NCBI GenBank assembly: GCA_022823725.1
Contig: JAJEHL010000041.1
Span: 124,001 to 188,000 of the forward strand
Direction of reading: 5' to 3'
DNA length: 64,000 nt
Source: Candidatus Latescibacterota bacterium
GTDB lineage: Bacteria; Latescibacterota; UBA2968
Below are positions 56,095-64,000 of this stretch, one piece after another (the first letter of the stretch is position 1; each line of letters starts with the position of its first letter). Both the position numbers and the translations under genes were made by a program. The notes below the pieces were generated by a model. That model had not been told where the DNA came from. It ran no database searches and was given only the letters and a program-made list of their open reading frames with translations.

Positions 56095-56114
56095 GCGGTA
56101 GAGGAATGAATTTT

Positions 56115-57065
56115 ATGAGATGTATTTTTTGCATCCTGCTTGTATTTGCTTGTATTGGTACGGCCAGAGCAGAGGTACAGGTCGCGTTTCGCTTTGAGGC
56201 TGTTTTTGGCGAAATAGGGGGTGGCGATGGGCAGTTTCTCGATCCCGAGGGATTGACTCTGGATACGTCGGGCAATGTGTTTGTAGTGGATACGGGAAAT
56301 GATCGCGTCCAAAAATTATCTCCAACCGGAACTTTTTTGAGGGCAGTGGGGGGACCGGGCTGGGAAGATGGGCAATTTAATAAACCGGGTGGTATTGCCG
56401 CGAGCAAAGGGCTGGAGATTTATGTAGCCGATGGCCGAAATCGCCGCATTCAGGTGTTTAATCTCAATTTGCGTCTTCTCGCGGTGATTGGTGGGGCGGA
56501 TGCAGGTGGTTCTATGGATCTGGGTACGCTCAGTGGTATTGCCGTGTCGGATGCAGATGAGATTTTGGTGGGCGATATCGATGCGGATCAACTGGTGCAG
56601 ATCGATACGTATAGCCGCGTTGATCGCAGTTTTGGCGGGTTTGGGTATGGGGCTGGCAATTTGCGGCGGCCTTTGGGGATCGCAATAGAGGGTCGCGAGG
56701 CGGTTTATGTTTGCGATAGCGAGAATGATAGAATCGCGGTGTTCGACAGATTTGGCAATTTTCAAAAGACAATGGGCGAAGATATTTTGTTGCAGCCTTC
56801 GGCGCTTTGCGTGGGGCCTGAGCGGACGTTGATTGTAGCGGATACAGGCCATCATCGCATTGTGGTTTTTGATCTCGATTCTGGCGGTGTTGTTGGCTCT
56901 TTGGGTGGTCCCGATCCGGGAAGGGGTGCGATGGCGTTCCAATTTCCCCGGGGTGTTGCGCTTGGACGCGCTGGCAGGTTGTTCGTTCTGGATTCGGGCA
57001 ATGGGCGCATTCAGAAGTTGCATATACAAGTTTCAAGGGGGAAGAGTGAGAAGGGTGACGAGTGA
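56115..57065 (+). CDS. Secreted NHL-repeat (beta-propeller) protein
   Basis: 316 residues from the ATG at 56115; the ATG at 56106 lies too close to the GAGG site to be preferred, though it is possible. A signal peptide (MRCIFCILLVFACIGTARA) is followed by about six NHL units: each has a D-x-x-G-N-V-F-V-x-D-T-x-N-D-R-V-Q-K-like core (DTSGNVFVVDTGNDRVQK, EIYVADGRNRRIQVF, LIVADTGHHRIVVF, LFVLDSGNGRIQKL). It would form a periplasmic or surface propeller that binds a partner. It opens the envelope cluster with the barrel and Omp85 genes that follow. Confidence 0.85.
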   Translation: MRCIFCILLVFACIGTARAEVQVAFRFEAVFGEIGGGDGQFLDPEGLTLDTSGNVFVVDTGNDRVQKLSPTGTFLRAVGGPGWEDGQFNKPGGIAASKGLEIYVADGRNRRIQVFNLNLRLLAVIGGADAGGSMDLGTLSGIAVSDADEILVGDIDADQLVQIDTYSRVDRSFGGFGYGAGNLRRPLGIAIEGREAVYVCDSENDRIAVFDRFGNFQKTMGEDILLQPSALCVGPERTLIVADTGHHRIVVFDLDSGGVVGSLGGPDPGRGAMAFQFPRGVALGRAGRLFVLDSGNGRIQKLHIQVSRGKSEKGDE

Positions 57066-57170
57066 AGTGCAAAGGATGAAGTGAGGAAAGGCCGGGATGT
57101 TCCGCGGGGGCGGGATGTCCTATTTTTTTTTAGTCGCGAGGGGTAAAAGGTGAGACGCGAGACGCGAGAG

Positions 57171-60100
57171 ATGAGTGTTGACACCCTTTGTATCGCTCAG
57201 GGCATTGTATTTTTTTTCTTTTGTGTTGCGGCGGCACAGGCACAGATTCCTGTGCCTGAGCAGTTTACGCTATTTGATGGAGAACGGGTGTTTCAAGCGG
57301 ATGGGAGCCGCGGGCCTTTTTCGATTTCCAATCGCGCCATTGAGGCAGCGAGCGAACGGGTTTGGGTGGATGGGGTGTTGCTCATTCGGGATCGAGATTA
57401 TGTGATAGATGCCGATCGTGCGTTGTTGACGCTTTTGCGGGATGTTGCGCGAGGTGTGGAGATTGTGGTGCGTTTTAGACAGCGTCCTCTGGTAACCGCA
57501 CCTGTGGTTCAGCGTCGTCAGTTCCAACCGGGGGAAGGTGGTGGAGATCCGCCGATTGTGCGTATGTTTGCTCCACCTGTTGTGCGCAATAAGGATGAAG
57601 AGCAGAAGTTGACGATTGGTGGTCACAAGAGTATTTCCGTAACTGCGGGGTCCCAACACGCGGTTCATCAGGCTTTGCAGTTGCGTATTTCGGGCGAGGT
57701 CGCCGAGGGAGTCAATTTATTGACCGTACTGTCCGATCGCAATTTGCCAATTGGAGAACAGGGCGGGTCGAAGCGGTTGCAGGAATTGGATCGCGTGTTT
57801 TTTCAGGTTAATGCCGATCAGATATCGGCCACGCTTGGCGATCTCGATGTGGCGTTTGATGGGACTGTGTTTGGGCGCTATCGGCGGCAGTTGCAGGGTG
57901 CGCGCGTGTTGGCCCATCGGCAGAATGGGCAAGTTGCGGCTTTTGGGGCAGTGTCGCGGGGGCGTTGGGAAACGCGGCGGCTGGTGACGGTTGAGGGGTT
58001 TCAGGGACCTTATTCATTGTCGGGTGGTGGCTTGAGGGGGCAGATAGTGCCAGAGTCTGAGCGCGTGTATCTCAACGGGCGGCTGCTCAGACGCGGGGAT
58101 GGGGCAGATTATACGATTGATTACGAGCGCGGGCATGTGGCGTTTACGCCTGAAATACCGATTGGGATAGAGAGCCGCGTTACAGTGGAATATCAGGTGA
58201 TTGATGCCGGTATGAGGAGCCGGCTGATGGGTATAGAGTCCCGCGTGTCCCTCGCTGAGGGGATGTCTGTGGGAACAACGCTGATTCGAGAGTCCGATCG
58301 TTCTGCATTGTCGCCTGGGATAGCTTCAGTGCATCGACAGTTGGGGGTGGTGTACGCGACGTACACGCCGTGGCCAAATGCGCGTATTTCTGGAGAGTTC
58401 GCCTTGAGTGATCGGGATTTGGGACGTGGACGCGGGTTTCGCATGGATGGCGCGTGGAATGCGCGCAATTTTGAAGTCACGGGTCGGTTTCGTCAGGTTG
58501 GGGCCAATTTTGAAGCATTTGAGAGATTGGATAGAGGGCGGGCTGCCGGGCGATGGGGGTGGCAAGCCGATACTGCGCGAACCGCCCAACGCGAGGGCGA
58601 GATGGCTGTGCGTTGGGATTTGGGCAAGGCGTTTTTTGTTACTGGGGAATACGGACAGCATTTGGGTGCTGTGCTAACGGATCGGAAAAGTGTGGGAATT
58701 CACGCGCCTGTAGGGATGTACCGCTACGAGTCACTCGGGCGCGGTAGCGGCGAGATGCGCCGGCACGAGGGGCAAGTTGAAGTGCCGGTGGGGGGTGTTG
58801 TGCCGGGGTTTCGTTTTTCGCTGGAAAATGGGGTGGGTGATGGGGTGGGGAGCAGTTCGCTTTTTTATGCCACACGTCCGCGCGTTTTGCCCCAGGGCGT
58901 TGACAAACAGGAGTTGGTGTGGCACATAGGTGTTGGCGAAGGGCGAAATTGGTCGTGGGTATCGGAGTTGAAATATCGAAAGTTCAGACAGCGAGAAGCG
59001 GTGTGGCAGGATAGTTTGCGCGGGTGGTTGCACACCCACAGGGCGCAGATGACAAATTGGAGGGGTTGGATTTTTTCTGGTTCTTATACACATGGGAACA
59101 TTCATATTGGGCGCGAACGCCAGCAGACGACGACACATCTGGGACGCGTGCGGTTGGGGCATACGCGTCCTGGCTCGTCGCATCAGATAACGTATCGCGT
59201 TTCGAGCACGCGGGTCAGTCAGCCCATTTTTGTCGAGGTGGCATCCGGGCTGGGGGAATATATCTGGGAGGATGCCAATGGCGATGGTTTGCGCGATGTG
59301 GAAGAGTTTGTACCCGATGTCGATGGCAATTATGTGCGGGTTTATGACTACGGACAGTTTGCCCCGGCACGCGATGGCGCGCTGGGCATGCGCGTGGAAA
59401 TTGATTTTCGGCGTTTGATAGGAGATAAGCACATTTTGTCCGCTATTGCGCTGGATGCGTCGTTTCGTGCGGAACGGCAGATTGCGACTGGGGCGAAGCA
59501 GGCAACTCCCTGGGATCTGTTGGGTTTTGATGCGGATGCCGGGATTTTGGGCGCTCGCAGGGATGGGCTGATGCGTCTTTATTTGTTTCGGTATCACAGG
59601 CGAGGATCGCTGCGTTTGACTGCGCGCGTGCGCGATCTGGTTAATCGGGCGTTTTACGGGGGGGCTGCCGAATTTTTTGTGCAGGGTGGCGTGTTGGGGA
59701 AATTGAGACCTGTCAATCGTCTTGAACTGGAGACGGAATTTGATCTGGGGCATAGAGCGCGCGAGGGTGCAGGTGCTTTTGCCTATCGCATTGATGGGGC
59801 GAGTGGTGCGCTGCGTTGCGCGTTCAGGTCTGCACATAAATGGTATTTGCGGTTGGGCATTTTGGGGGGGCGAGATTGGGAAGGTATCCGGGCGTTGCGC
59901 GCGTGGCATATCGGTGTCCAGCCAGAGGTGATTTACGCTTTGCCCGGTCGCGGGCGATTGCGCGGGCGGTTGGATTGGACGCGGGTTTGGGCGACGGATA
60001 CAGCACCCTTATTTTTGGGGTTGGCAAGGGGTAATCGTCAGGGGCAGAACTGGGGGTGGCGATTGGGGATGGATTACCGTTTTGGCAAATATGTATCAGC

Positions 60101-60182
60101 GCGGGTGATGTACGATGGTCGCGTAAGGCCTGCTCGTCAGGCGATACATCTTGGGCGTGTGGAGATGCGGGCGGTGTTTTGA
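57171..60182 (+). CDS. Large outer-membrane beta-barrel protein, family not recognised
   Basis: 1,003 residues from the ATG at 57171, chosen because it gives a good signal peptide (hydrophobic FFFFCVAAAQA). The first part has repeated strands of the form VWVDGVLLIRDRDYVID and VYLNGRLLRRGDGADYTIDYERGHVAF, which recur in surface proteins of FCB-type bacteria. The remainder is a series of alternating beta strands with aromatic girdles, and the chain ends in a phenylalanine (MRAVF), the usual C-terminal outer-membrane insertion signal. No TonB box or plug was recognised. It is flanked by the NHL protein and an Omp85 protein. Confidence 0.6.
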   Translation: MSVDTLCIAQGIVFFFFCVAAAQAQIPVPEQFTLFDGERVFQADGSRGPFSISNRAIEAASERVWVDGVLLIRDRDYVIDADRALLTLLRDVARGVEIVVRFRQRPLVTAPVVQRRQFQPGEGGGDPPIVRMFAPPVVRNKDEEQKLTIGGHKSISVTAGSQHAVHQALQLRISGEVAEGVNLLTVLSDRNLPIGEQGGSKRLQELDRVFFQVNADQISATLGDLDVAFDGTVFGRYRRQLQGARVLAHRQNGQVAAFGAVSRGRWETRRLVTVEGFQGPYSLSGGGLRGQIVPESERVYLNGRLLRRGDGADYTIDYERGHVAFTPEIPIGIESRVTVEYQVIDAGMRSRLMGIESRVSLAEGMSVGTTLIRESDRSALSPGIASVHRQLGVVYATYTPWPNARISGEFALSDRDLGRGRGFRMDGAWNARNFEVTGRFRQVGANFEAFERLDRGRAAGRWGWQADTARTAQREGEMAVRWDLGKAFFVTGEYGQHLGAVLTDRKSVGIHAPVGMYRYESLGRGSGEMRRHEGQVEVPVGGVVPGFRFSLENGVGDGVGSSSLFYATRPRVLPQGVDKQELVWHIGVGEGRNWSWVSELKYRKFRQREAVWQDSLRGWLHTHRAQMTNWRGWIFSGSYTHGNIHIGRERQQTTTHLGRVRLGHTRPGSSHQITYRVSSTRVSQPIFVEVASGLGEYIWEDANGDGLRDVEEFVPDVDGNYVRVYDYGQFAPARDGALGMRVEIDFRRLIGDKHILSAIALDASFRAERQIATGAKQATPWDLLGFDADAGILGARRDGLMRLYLFRYHRRGSLRLTARVRDLVNRAFYGGAAEFFVQGGVLGKLRPVNRLELETEFDLGHRAREGAGAFAYRIDGASGALRCAFRSAHKWYLRLGILGGRDWEGIRALRAWHIGVQPEVIYALPGRGRLRGRLDWTRVWATDTAPLFLGLARGNRQGQNWGWRLGMDYRFGKYVSARVMYDGRVRPARQAIHLGRVEMRAVF

Positions 60183-60338: not shown

Positions 60339-62000
60339 ATGAATACAGATAAATACATAAAAGTATGGCGATGCTTTCTGCTTGCGCTGTGGATGATCTG
60401 CATTGTGTCCAGTGCGGGGGGAGAGATGCGTGCGATTGTGAAGCGCGTGCAGGTTGAAGGTGCGCGGTCTGTAAGTGTGCGCGATGTGCGGGGGTGGCTG
60501 GTTACGCGGGCGGGCGTTGCAGTGGATTCGGCGTTGTTGCGAAAGGATGTTCACCGCATTTTGAAGGGGTATCAGGCGCGTGGATTCTGGCATGTGGCGG
60601 TGGCTTTTCCCAGGGTTGCAATGCGCGGGGGCGACGCGACGGTGGCTTTTGCGATTGTTGAGGGGGTGCGAACGCGGGTTGCGTCTGTGGATGTAAGCGG
60701 TGATTTGATTTTTGAGCCATCGGAGGCTTTTGGTCTGGCGCGGGGTATGGTGTTGATCGAAAGCGATTTAAACCAGCAGTTAGATCGTTTGTTGCGTTTT
60801 TATGAAGACCGGGGCTATCCGTTTTGTGCACTGCGTCCAGATGTGCAATTTGATAGGGATAGCGCGCGCGTACAGGTGGTGGTGTCGCCCGGTCCTCTGG
60901 TGCATGTCGATGCGGTGCGTTTTGAGGGCAATCAAACGACTCGGGAGGATGTTTTGTTGCGGCATATATCGTTTGTTGTGGGCGAGATGTATGACCAGCG
61001 TCGCGTGGATGCTTTTGTGCGGCAGTTGCAGATTTTGCCGTTTATCGACCGGGTTTATACGCCTGAACTCGTATCTACCGGGGATGAGATGGCTCTTGTG
61101 ATCGAGTTGGAAGAGTCGCGTCACACGCGCATTGAAGGGGTGCTCGGTTTGGGATCTGGACAGGGTTTGACCGGAGAGATCGCGCTCGATGTTCTGAATT
61201 TTTCCGGCGGGGGACGAGAGGGGTACGCCTTGTGGTCTCGGCAGGGGGTGGGGTTGTCGAATTTGCGCGTTTCGTATCGCGAACCCTATATTTTAAGTAG
61301 TCCAATTTCCGGTTGGGGTGCGGTGGAAATGGTTGCGCGCACGGGGTATGTGACGCATAAGTTTGGGGGGGGCGCAGATGTGTCTGTGGGCGAGGGCGCG
61401 CGCTTTTTTGGCGGTGTTGCACACAGGCGCGTTTTACCCGATTCTGCGGGGTTGGGATTTTTTGAAGGCGAGAGGATGTGGTCTCTCGCGTCGGGTGTTC
61501 GGTTTGATCGCCGAAGGCGTGATATGAGTGGCTGGCAGGCGGAGGTCAGGGGAGAGGTCGGCGAGGTTTCCGATGGGATCAGGCGCGTGCAGTGGGAGGT
61601 TGATGGGCAGGTGTTTTTGCCTGTGGGCAGGCAGTCTGTTGTTGCGGGACGGGCGCGCGCTTTTTGGGTGGGACAAAAGGGGGATGTGCCACAGACTGCC
61701 GGAATCTGGCTGGGGGGGGCACAATCGCTGCGCGGCTATCGGGAAGAGATGTTCTGGGGGACAAATGCGGGGTGGGTCAATGTGGAATGGCGGTGGTTGC
61801 TGGGACCGAAAGCGCGGCTTTTTGCATTTGTGGATGCGGGAAGGATTGAGGGGGCAGGGATGCGTTCGTGGCCCGTGTCCTATGGCATTGGTCTTTTGGC
61901 AGATGGACGGATGGGCGCGGTTGGGATAGATTATGGTTTGCCGCGGGGCGAGAGCCTGGGGCAAGGTATGGTGCATGTGCGGATGGTTAGCGCGTTTTAA
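60339..62000 (+). CDS. Omp85/BamA-TamA family outer-membrane assembly protein
   Basis: 553 residues. After a signal segment there are about three POTRA domains (27-105, 106-190, 191-270; pattern V--V-V-G----S---VR at each start). The remaining 280 residues form the Omp85 barrel: SLRGYREEMFWG has the conserved L6-loop RGY motif, VEWRWLLGPKARLFAFVDAG is the next hairpin, and the chain ends in F (VRMVSAF). Three POTRAs and this length resemble TamA more than BamA, which usually has five. It could insert the preceding barrel or export a product with it. Confidence 0.88.
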   Translation: MNTDKYIKVWRCFLLALWMICIVSSAGGEMRAIVKRVQVEGARSVSVRDVRGWLVTRAGVAVDSALLRKDVHRILKGYQARGFWHVAVAFPRVAMRGGDATVAFAIVEGVRTRVASVDVSGDLIFEPSEAFGLARGMVLIESDLNQQLDRLLRFYEDRGYPFCALRPDVQFDRDSARVQVVVSPGPLVHVDAVRFEGNQTTREDVLLRHISFVVGEMYDQRRVDAFVRQLQILPFIDRVYTPELVSTGDEMALVIELEESRHTRIEGVLGLGSGQGLTGEIALDVLNFSGGGREGYALWSRQGVGLSNLRVSYREPYILSSPISGWGAVEMVARTGYVTHKFGGGADVSVGEGARFFGGVAHRRVLPDSAGLGFFEGERMWSLASGVRFDRRRRDMSGWQAEVRGEVGEVSDGIRRVQWEVDGQVFLPVGRQSVVAGRARAFWVGQKGDVPQTAGIWLGGAQSLRGYREEMFWGTNAGWVNVEWRWLLGPKARLFAFVDAGRIEGAGMRSWPVSYGIGLLADGRMGAVGIDYGLPRGESLGQGMVHVRMVSAF

Positions 62001-62081: not shown

Positions 62082-64000
62082 ATGTTGAACAGGATTCGCA
62101 GTGTGATGGTGGTCGTTCTTGCCGCTGGTCTTATGTGGGGCTGCGGTGGTGAGCGCGGGATGGAGCCTTCCGAGGTAGAGGATCAGGTTGGACGCCCGCT
62201 GAGTAAAATGGCTGTAGCGGGTGGTGGTATATCTCAAGCGACGGTAGTGGCGACTGTGTCGCAAGATGATGCGCCTGTGGCAGGTGCGATGGTTGAGTTT
62301 GCGCGTTCTATTGCCGGGCAGGTGCCCGATTATCAGTGGTCGGGTATGACTGATGATATGGGGCGCGTCACGGTGGAGATATCCGGTCAGGCGAGTGGAT
62401 ATTATCAGGCGCGTGCGTCTTGGGATGGCTCTGTGATGGGGCGCTGGTCGAGTATCCCGATCAATGGAGGCTACAGGACAATGGTTGCGTTGCCCATTGG
62501 TGGGAGGGCGCAGGTGACGGGTACATCTGAGCGCGTTACCATTGGGATTGTCCTACCGGTAACGGGAAGCCTTCATGATTCATTTGGCATACCGATACAG
62601 CAAGGTCTTGATTTAGCACGTCAGGGAATTGGCAATGTGGAACTTAAGTTTGTCATTGAGGACGATCAGAGCACCGTAGAGGGCGCAGTCGCGGCCTATA
62701 ATAAACTGATCCAAGCAGGCGTGCCTGTTATTATCGGCCCTTCTACCTCAAGCCAGACGAGGATGGCTTTTCCGATTGCACAAGAAAATCAGGTGGTGGC
62801 GATTAGTCCGACTTCAGCCGCCACTGGTCTCAGCGCGCTTGGAGATTTTGTTTTTCGTGCTGCCCTGACCACAGATGTTCTTATTCCGAGTGGCATTGAA
62901 GCCACGCACGAAAAACTCGGTTATCAAACCGCCGCTACGCTATATGACGAGCTAGATTTTTTTTCCATCGATTCGGACAAAGTCATAAGAGAAGTGCTCG
63001 CTGCGAAGGGCGTTGAGGTGCTATCTACTGAAACCTTCCAGAGCAATGATACCGACTTTTCTGAACAATTAACCCGAATACAGGCATTGAACCCTGACGT
63101 CATTTTTGTTTCGTCCTTATCACCAGAAAAATCTGAAATTCTAAAGCAAGGACATCAACTCGGTATATCTGCTACCTTTATCGTGCGTACCCTGACTGTT
63201 GAAAATGTCCAAAAAGCAGGTGCAGCCGCTGAGGGTGCGATCACTTTCATAGGATGGGGTGCAGCGTTCGACACACCGGGAAATCACGCCTTCGTGCAGA
63301 ATTACAGGGCTGAATACGGTGGGGAACCGAACAACTATGTTGCGCGTGCCTATACCACACTTCGCATTTTGGCAGAGGCGATTGCAAATGCACAATCCAC
63401 CGAGGCTACCTCAATTCGAGATGCACTCGCCAATATCAGGGATTTTGACACAGTTTTCGGCAACTTCTCCTTTGATGCCAATGGAGACGCGGTTTACGAT
63501 GCAAAGGTTCTGATTGTCAAAGACGGCAATCTCGAAATTTTCGATGCACAACCCGTTTCACAGGCGACTGCGACAATTGGCGAGACGAATGAAAGCGGCT
63601 TAACCGGAAAAGCGGTTTTCACACAGAACGGCGATAATATCAAGTTCGTCATCTCGCTCGCTAATGTGTCTCCAGGCGAACACGCTGTTCATATCCACGA
63701 AACTGGCGATTGCAGTGCTCCAGACGGGAAATCGGCTGGCGGGCATTGGAATCCCACTGGCGTTGCACACGGAAAATGGGGAGAAGGTGAATTTCACCTC
63801 GGCGACATTGGCAATATGACTGTCGATGATCAAGGCATGGGAAAACTTGAACTGACGACAAATCTTTGGGAGATGAACACTGGCTCAGACATAGATGTCG
63901 TTGGAAAAGCGATCATCGTCCATGCAGGTGCTGATGATTTTGTCTCACAACCTTCGGGCAATGCTGGCCCGCGAATTGGTTGCGGCGTGATTAAAATGGA
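62082..64000 (+). CDS. Lipoprotein fusing a type I periplasmic substrate-binding domain to a Cu/Zn superoxide dismutase domain (cut by window edge)
   Basis: The frame is open from the ATG at 62082 (AAAGGGAG upstream) to the right edge: 639 codons, no stop. A lipobox LMWG-C21 ends the signal. Residues 45-145 look like an Ig-like domain (VVATVSQDDAPVAGAMVEF). Residues 150-500 are a LivK-like Peripla_BP_6 domain (VTIGIVLPVTGS, IIGPSTSSQT, ATSIRDALANI). From 506 there is a complete Cu/Zn-SOD domain: H537, H539, H555 and H614 match the Cu ligands, H555, H563, H572 and D575 the Zn ligands; GDC and GCGVI give the disulfide, and GPRIG the active-site arginine. The frame ends just before the SOD C-terminus is due. 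Why a ligand binder would carry SOD is unknown. Confidence 0.85.
   Translation, partial: MLNRIRSVMVVVLAAGLMWGCGGERGMEPSEVEDQVGRPLSKMAVAGGGISQATVVATVSQDDAPVAGAMVEFARSIAGQVPDYQWSGMTDDMGRVTVEISGQASGYYQARASWDGSVMGRWSSIPINGGYRTMVALPIGGRAQVTGTSERVTIGIVLPVTGSLHDSFGIPIQQGLDLARQGIGNVELKFVIEDDQSTVEGAVAAYNKLIQAGVPVIIGPSTSSQTRMAFPIAQENQVVAISPTSAATGLSALGDFVFRAALTTDVLIPSGIEATHEKLGYQTAATLYDELDFFSIDSDKVIREVLAAKGVEVLSTETFQSNDTDFSEQLTRIQALNPDVIFVSSLSPEKSEILKQGHQLGISATFIVRTLTVENVQKAGAAAEGAITFIGWGAAFDTPGNHAFVQNYRAEYGGEPNNYVARAYTTLRILAEAIANAQSTEATSIRDALANIRDFDTVFGNFSFDANGDAVYDAKVLIVKDGNLEIFDAQPVSQATATIGETNESGLTGKAVFTQNGDNIKFVISLANVSPGEHAVHIHETGDCSAPDGKSAGGHWNPTGVAHGKWGEGEFHLGDIGNMTVDDQGMGKLELTTNLWEMNTGSDIDVVGKAIIVHAGADDFVSQPSGNAGPRIGCGVIKM

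Follow-up and report, generated by a model that had tools for sequence, protein, structure and literature searches.

How does a single bacterial gene come to encode both a solute-binding domain and a complete Cu/Zn superoxide dismutase (SOD), and do the two domains depend on each other? This question is raised by the last gene of the window, i.e. the stretch of 64,000 nucleotides that was analysed here, which belongs to a Latescibacterota genome of 5.3 Mb that is 98% complete (G000). As the original prediction had it, the gene is one uninterrupted frame on the forward strand; it leads from the ATG at 62082 to a TGA at 64002-64004 and thus occupies the window up to position 64000 with its true end at 64004, so that the stop codon, sought by extending the sequence to the right, falls just past the last base of the window. 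The frame encodes a product of 640 amino acids (aa). An export signal ending in Cys21 (62082-62144 (+)) opens a header module (aa 1-148; 62082-62525 (+)), which further comprises an Ig-like, Big_1-like region and is followed by a type I substrate-binding domain (SBP; Peripla_BP_6, LivK-like, designated type A below; aa 152-486; 62535-63539 (+)), a short linker of ~13 aa (aa 487-499; 63540-63578 (+)), and the Cu/Zn-SOD domain (aa 496-638; 63567-63995 (+)). The order of lipobox, Ig-like region, LivK-type domain, and SOD that had been read from the gene is therefore supported as regards the domains and the presence of an export/anchor signal. The Ig-like part scores 26.4 bits against Big_1 (PF02369), i.e. 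below the curated Pfam cutoff of 34.9; the corresponding parts of the relatives also stay under this cutoff, and the predicted structure of the header is of low confidence (pLDDT <50).

The fusion is real and constitutes one gene. The original prediction suggested looking for the same domain order elsewhere, and proteins related over the full length are indeed encoded by 10 genomes from two Latescibacterota families (61-96% full-length identity): seven of the 11 that represent the genus, counting the window's own, and three from another family in the order. A chimeric join is ruled out because the same junctions recur in all 10 genomes, on contigs named in two assembler styles (MEGAHIT and SPAdes); the ten relatives likewise exclude misassembly and a stop codon between the domains, both of which had been regarded as fatal to the idea of a fusion. 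Within the genus the locus has the syntenic order sulfatase, NHL-repeat protein (56106-57065 (+)), large conserved protein without a convincing Pfam match (57150-60182 (+)), Omp85/POTRA outer-membrane protein (60339-62000 (+)), fusion gene, PIG-L deacetylase, and MFS protein. The same slot holds a header-SBP gene without SOD in the closed genome of one congener (G007), and in another closed genome (G008) the gene is absent beside Omp85. For the remaining two genomes the locus is not covered, as the contig ends inside Omp85 (G010) or in the same area (G009).

The product is probably an envelope-anchored export protein with a lipidated Cys21, as argued by the conserved Cys in combination with the hydrophobic signal. 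The lipobox originally proposed stands only in part: measured against the pattern [LVI][ASTVI][GAS]C, the sequence LMWGC offers the hydrophobic segment and the Cys, but is non-canonical with its Trp at position -2. Among the relatives, position -1 is N, H or R in 14 of 53, and the Cys is present in every relative row in which the lipobox motif was found. In E. coli a Gly at position +2 favours the outer membrane, and, as position +2 is a Gly here, the outer membrane is by this rule more likely than the inner membrane as the predicted site.

Both following domains are well defined. Peripla_BP_6 matches aa 152-482 with 173.5 bits (Pfam cutoff 31.7) and the best Foldseek match of the SBP model is LivK (3td9, E 5e-19); the curated NCBIfam threshold for LivJ/LivK is missed (107 bits vs 477 for PRK15404.1). 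In the alignment, TPAST of 3td9 corresponds to SPTSA, placing an Ala at the position of the Thr of 3td9, so that a branched-chain amino acid should not be assumed as the ligand. Sod_Cu (PF00080) matches aa 508-637 with 131.8 bits (Pfam cutoff 28.9). The copper ligands (H537, H539, H555, H614), the zinc ligands (H555, H563, H572, D575), the cysteines of the disulfide pair (C544/C634), and the active-site residue R631 are invariant in 10/10 fusions, which confirms the earlier statement that all metal ligands and the disulfide pair are present. These residues align with the solved Cu/Zn-SOD 7b4o, and the predicted fold matches CuZnSOD 7b4p with a TM score of 0.88. As the ligand set is complete and the dN/dS of about 0.08-0.23 indicates purifying selection, the SOD is probably enzymatically active. 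No other Cu/Zn-SOD was found in the window's genome, which further encodes an Fe/Mn SOD (about 208 aa) as a separate protein, nor was any besides the fusion's own found in the other genomes with the fusion.

The modules differ in ancestry. All ten SODs from the fusions fall into one clade (95/100), which groups with about 40 stand-alone SodC proteins from Poribacteria; an origin from other Latescibacterota SodCs can be rejected, these being only 34-46% identical and distant in the tree. Nesting of the fused SODs inside the Poribacteria SODs is not significant, and since a sister arrangement is allowed (p 0.56), the direction of transfer does not follow from the SOD by itself. A single ancestor for all fused SBPs is rejected (one-clade constraint, p 8e-72). 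Instead, three types can be distinguished: type A (G000, G002, G005) is nested among Poribacteria SBPs (p 0.035), the nearest being 76% identical, type B (G001, G003, G004, G006) groups with Latescibacterota SBPs including that of the unfused G007, and type C, found in the three members of the second family, stands apart. Thus, SBP type A and the SOD both have Poribacteria affinity. In Poribacteria themselves, every full-match SodC from 85 genomes of the phylum is unfused (frames of 188-266 aa), and we therefore reject the idea that the fusion already existed there. In two Poribacteria (L113:3881-8269, L114:3785-7774) an SBP gene lies directly downstream of sodC with a second SBP close behind, i.e. 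in the order SOD to SBP, the reverse of that in the fusion.

The SBP has been replaced at a fixed locus. Types A and B are only about 54% identical, even though they reside at one syntenic locus, and for the pair G000 (A)/G004 (B) dS amounts to 0.27 for the header, 1.85 for the SBP, and 0.19 for the SOD, with 0.21-0.35 for seven flanking genes. Rapid diversifying selection on the SBP is rejected, as the synonymous divergence, too, is ~7x that of the flanks. Around aa 140-155, nucleotide identity between A and B drops from >95% to 44%; it rises again toward aa 500-540. The header shares the strong G skew of the neighbouring genes on its strand; the type A SBP lacks the GC/strand skew of the neighbouring genes. 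Pairs of type A SBPs have dS values of 0.025 and 0.064, lower than the 0.10-0.25 of the flanking genes in these pairs, which suggests a recent spread of type A. Other module borders recombine as well, since G002 combines the type A SBP with a B-like linker and SOD, G000 carrying type A with its own SOD and the linker (aa 487-499) being the zone where the two part, and since members of the second family diverge in the SOD (dS 0.32) but not in the header (dS 0.01).

The header is not confined to the fusion. Its first ~148 aa recur in other proteins of the window's genome with about 56-65% identity and different C-termini, and across the order they precede type I SBPs (single or in tandem), Cache domains, cytochrome c, a PHB-type esterase, and an SMP-30-like propeller; further candidate payloads, seen only as sub-threshold matches, are type II SBPs, lipocalin-like domains, and an S55 peptidase. 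In 18 genomes of other phyla (17 Poribacteria, 1 Dadabacteria) the header was not detected by a search that yields 13 matches to header or SBP in the window's genome. The headers of the fusions and of the unfused G007 protein form one clade (100/98), which sits within the radiation of the window's family. As the headers of the second family are included therein, the fusion gene may have moved between the families. We tentatively regard the header as a domain-capture platform, i.e. as a Latescibacterota anchor module that may repeatedly gain exported payload domains by recombination at conserved module ends, also from a second phylum that inhabits sponge hosts of the same kind, such that binding and enzyme functions at the surface would be exchanged at a fixed locus; this idea is possible, but somewhat less than even in probability. 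The header family suggests a route by which uncultured Latescibacterota diversify their cell-envelope proteins. Several further arrangements were observed: a header-SBP protein of G005 (L128:424-2499) ends in a C-terminal tail of ~180 aa with a weak, sub-threshold match to S55 (SpoIVB) peptidase; in longer exported proteins on two contigs of the window's genome (C49 and C42; L030, L031, L032, L033) the Ig-like part of the header is internal and precedes a FlgD/T9SS-like C-terminal sorting domain; in one protein (L027:1492-3189) the header is joined to two copies of an unassigned domain of about 150-200 aa; and in the second family header-SBP genes stand in tandem arrays (L071:5532-14546, L127, L130), which are possible recombination donors.

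Natural joining of an exported bacterial Cu/Zn-SOD to an unrelated domain is known from DrSOD of Deinococcus radiodurans, a Cu/Zn-SOD:lactonase fusion with both parts active, and 276 InterPro domain architectures with Cu/Zn-SOD are reported (PMC12362111). The original claim that no such fusion is known was thus too strong for the class: multi-domain Cu/Zn-SODs are already established, and it is the mosaic origin that is the unusual side of the present gene. DrSOD differs in that its SOD is N-terminal and its partner is a lactonase beta-propeller instead of an SBP (PMC12362111). An SBP-SOD fusion was not found in the open-access literature; our contig scan relied on SOD peptide patterns and is not exhaustive for other SBP-SOD fusions. 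The individual parts have close counterparts. Lipoprotein SodC of Candidatus Poribacteria (~190 aa) shares the metal sites and 67-76% identity with the SOD, but stands alone, without SBP or header and with its own canonical N-terminal lipobox. Stand-alone LivK-type SBP lipoproteins of Poribacteria (~398 aa) are up to 76% identical to type A, but likewise have their own canonical lipobox and neither header nor SOD. Latescibacterota header-SBP proteins (G007, same locus; G000:C35:282278) share header and SBP fold, but lack the SOD, and some carry a second SBP or, in one case from G005, the tail with the sub-threshold peptidase match. The nearest folds, 3td9/4gnr (LivK/LivJ) for the SBP and 7b4o/7b4p (Bacteroidetes CuZnSOD) for the SOD, are, unlike the fusion, each single-domain.

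Taken together, we consider it probable that the gene was made by recombination and that its product is an exported, envelope-anchored protein in which a Latescibacterota anchor/spacer displays a LivK-type SBP and a complete Cu/Zn-SOD as independent modules. A SOD related to the Poribacteria lipoprotein SodC would have been appended to a header-SBP protein in a single event, with a later exchange of the SBP via the conserved header and the conserved end of the SBP. The SOD may then remove extracytoplasmic superoxide, for which the separate, presumably cytoplasmic Fe/Mn SOD would not serve, and the SBP may bind a small solute on its own account, both being co-displayed and working independently. 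That ligand binding by the SBP changes the activity or position of the SOD, which would tie the capture of nutrients or host signals to superoxide removal, is close to what the original prediction envisaged, and the single chain with its linker of ~13 aa as well as the adjoining SBP and SodC genes in two Poribacteria, which hint at a functional link, are in line with it. Nevertheless, such a coupling is improbable and unsupported, as the SBP was swapped for a type only ~54% identical under an unchanged SOD, G007 keeps header and SBP without a SOD, and the Poribacteria SodCs stand alone. Hence neither domain needs the other, and with an SBP that can be exchanged and a SOD that can be dispensed with, we prefer independent co-display.

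It is also rather unlikely that the SBP feeds a LivHM permease with the SOD guarding transporter or substrate. By its fold the SBP is a member of the LivK family, and LivH/M-type permeases are encoded elsewhere in the genome, but ABC permease and ATPase genes are absent among the neighbours of the fusion gene, only four permease-domain matches face many SBP paralogs, and the Gly at +2 would place the protein at the outer membrane, away from any permease. The sharp composition break at the header/SBP joint might finally be taken for an assembly artefact or a recent, neutral read-through fusion; this is very improbable indeed in view of identical junctions in ten genomes of two families, conserved flanks, and purifying selection on the SOD. 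The fusion makes the independence of its domains directly testable, and, with a foreign, probably detoxifying enzyme on a native envelope anchor and a middle domain replaced at an orthologous locus, the gene represents a clear natural case of cross-phylum domain shuffling within one gene.

The fusion-carrying bacteria dwell in marine sponges, where host and microbes alike encounter reactive oxygen, which would be a plausible reason for displaying a SOD; the fusion suggests that sponge symbionts are under selection from superoxide outside the cytoplasm. In a survey of Latescibacterota genomes from sponges, katG and sodA are named as the reactive-oxygen enzymes (PMC12993501). Many Poribacteria also encode a second, divergent Cu/Zn-SOD-like lipoprotein (L215:1629-2855 (+), L216:1532-2899 (+), and, with a shorter insert, L217:936-1712 (-)), which is matched by PF00080 only and in which a long insertion with a His-rich stretch, extended by ~150 aa in the longer forms, precedes the terminal GARI(A/G)CGVI.
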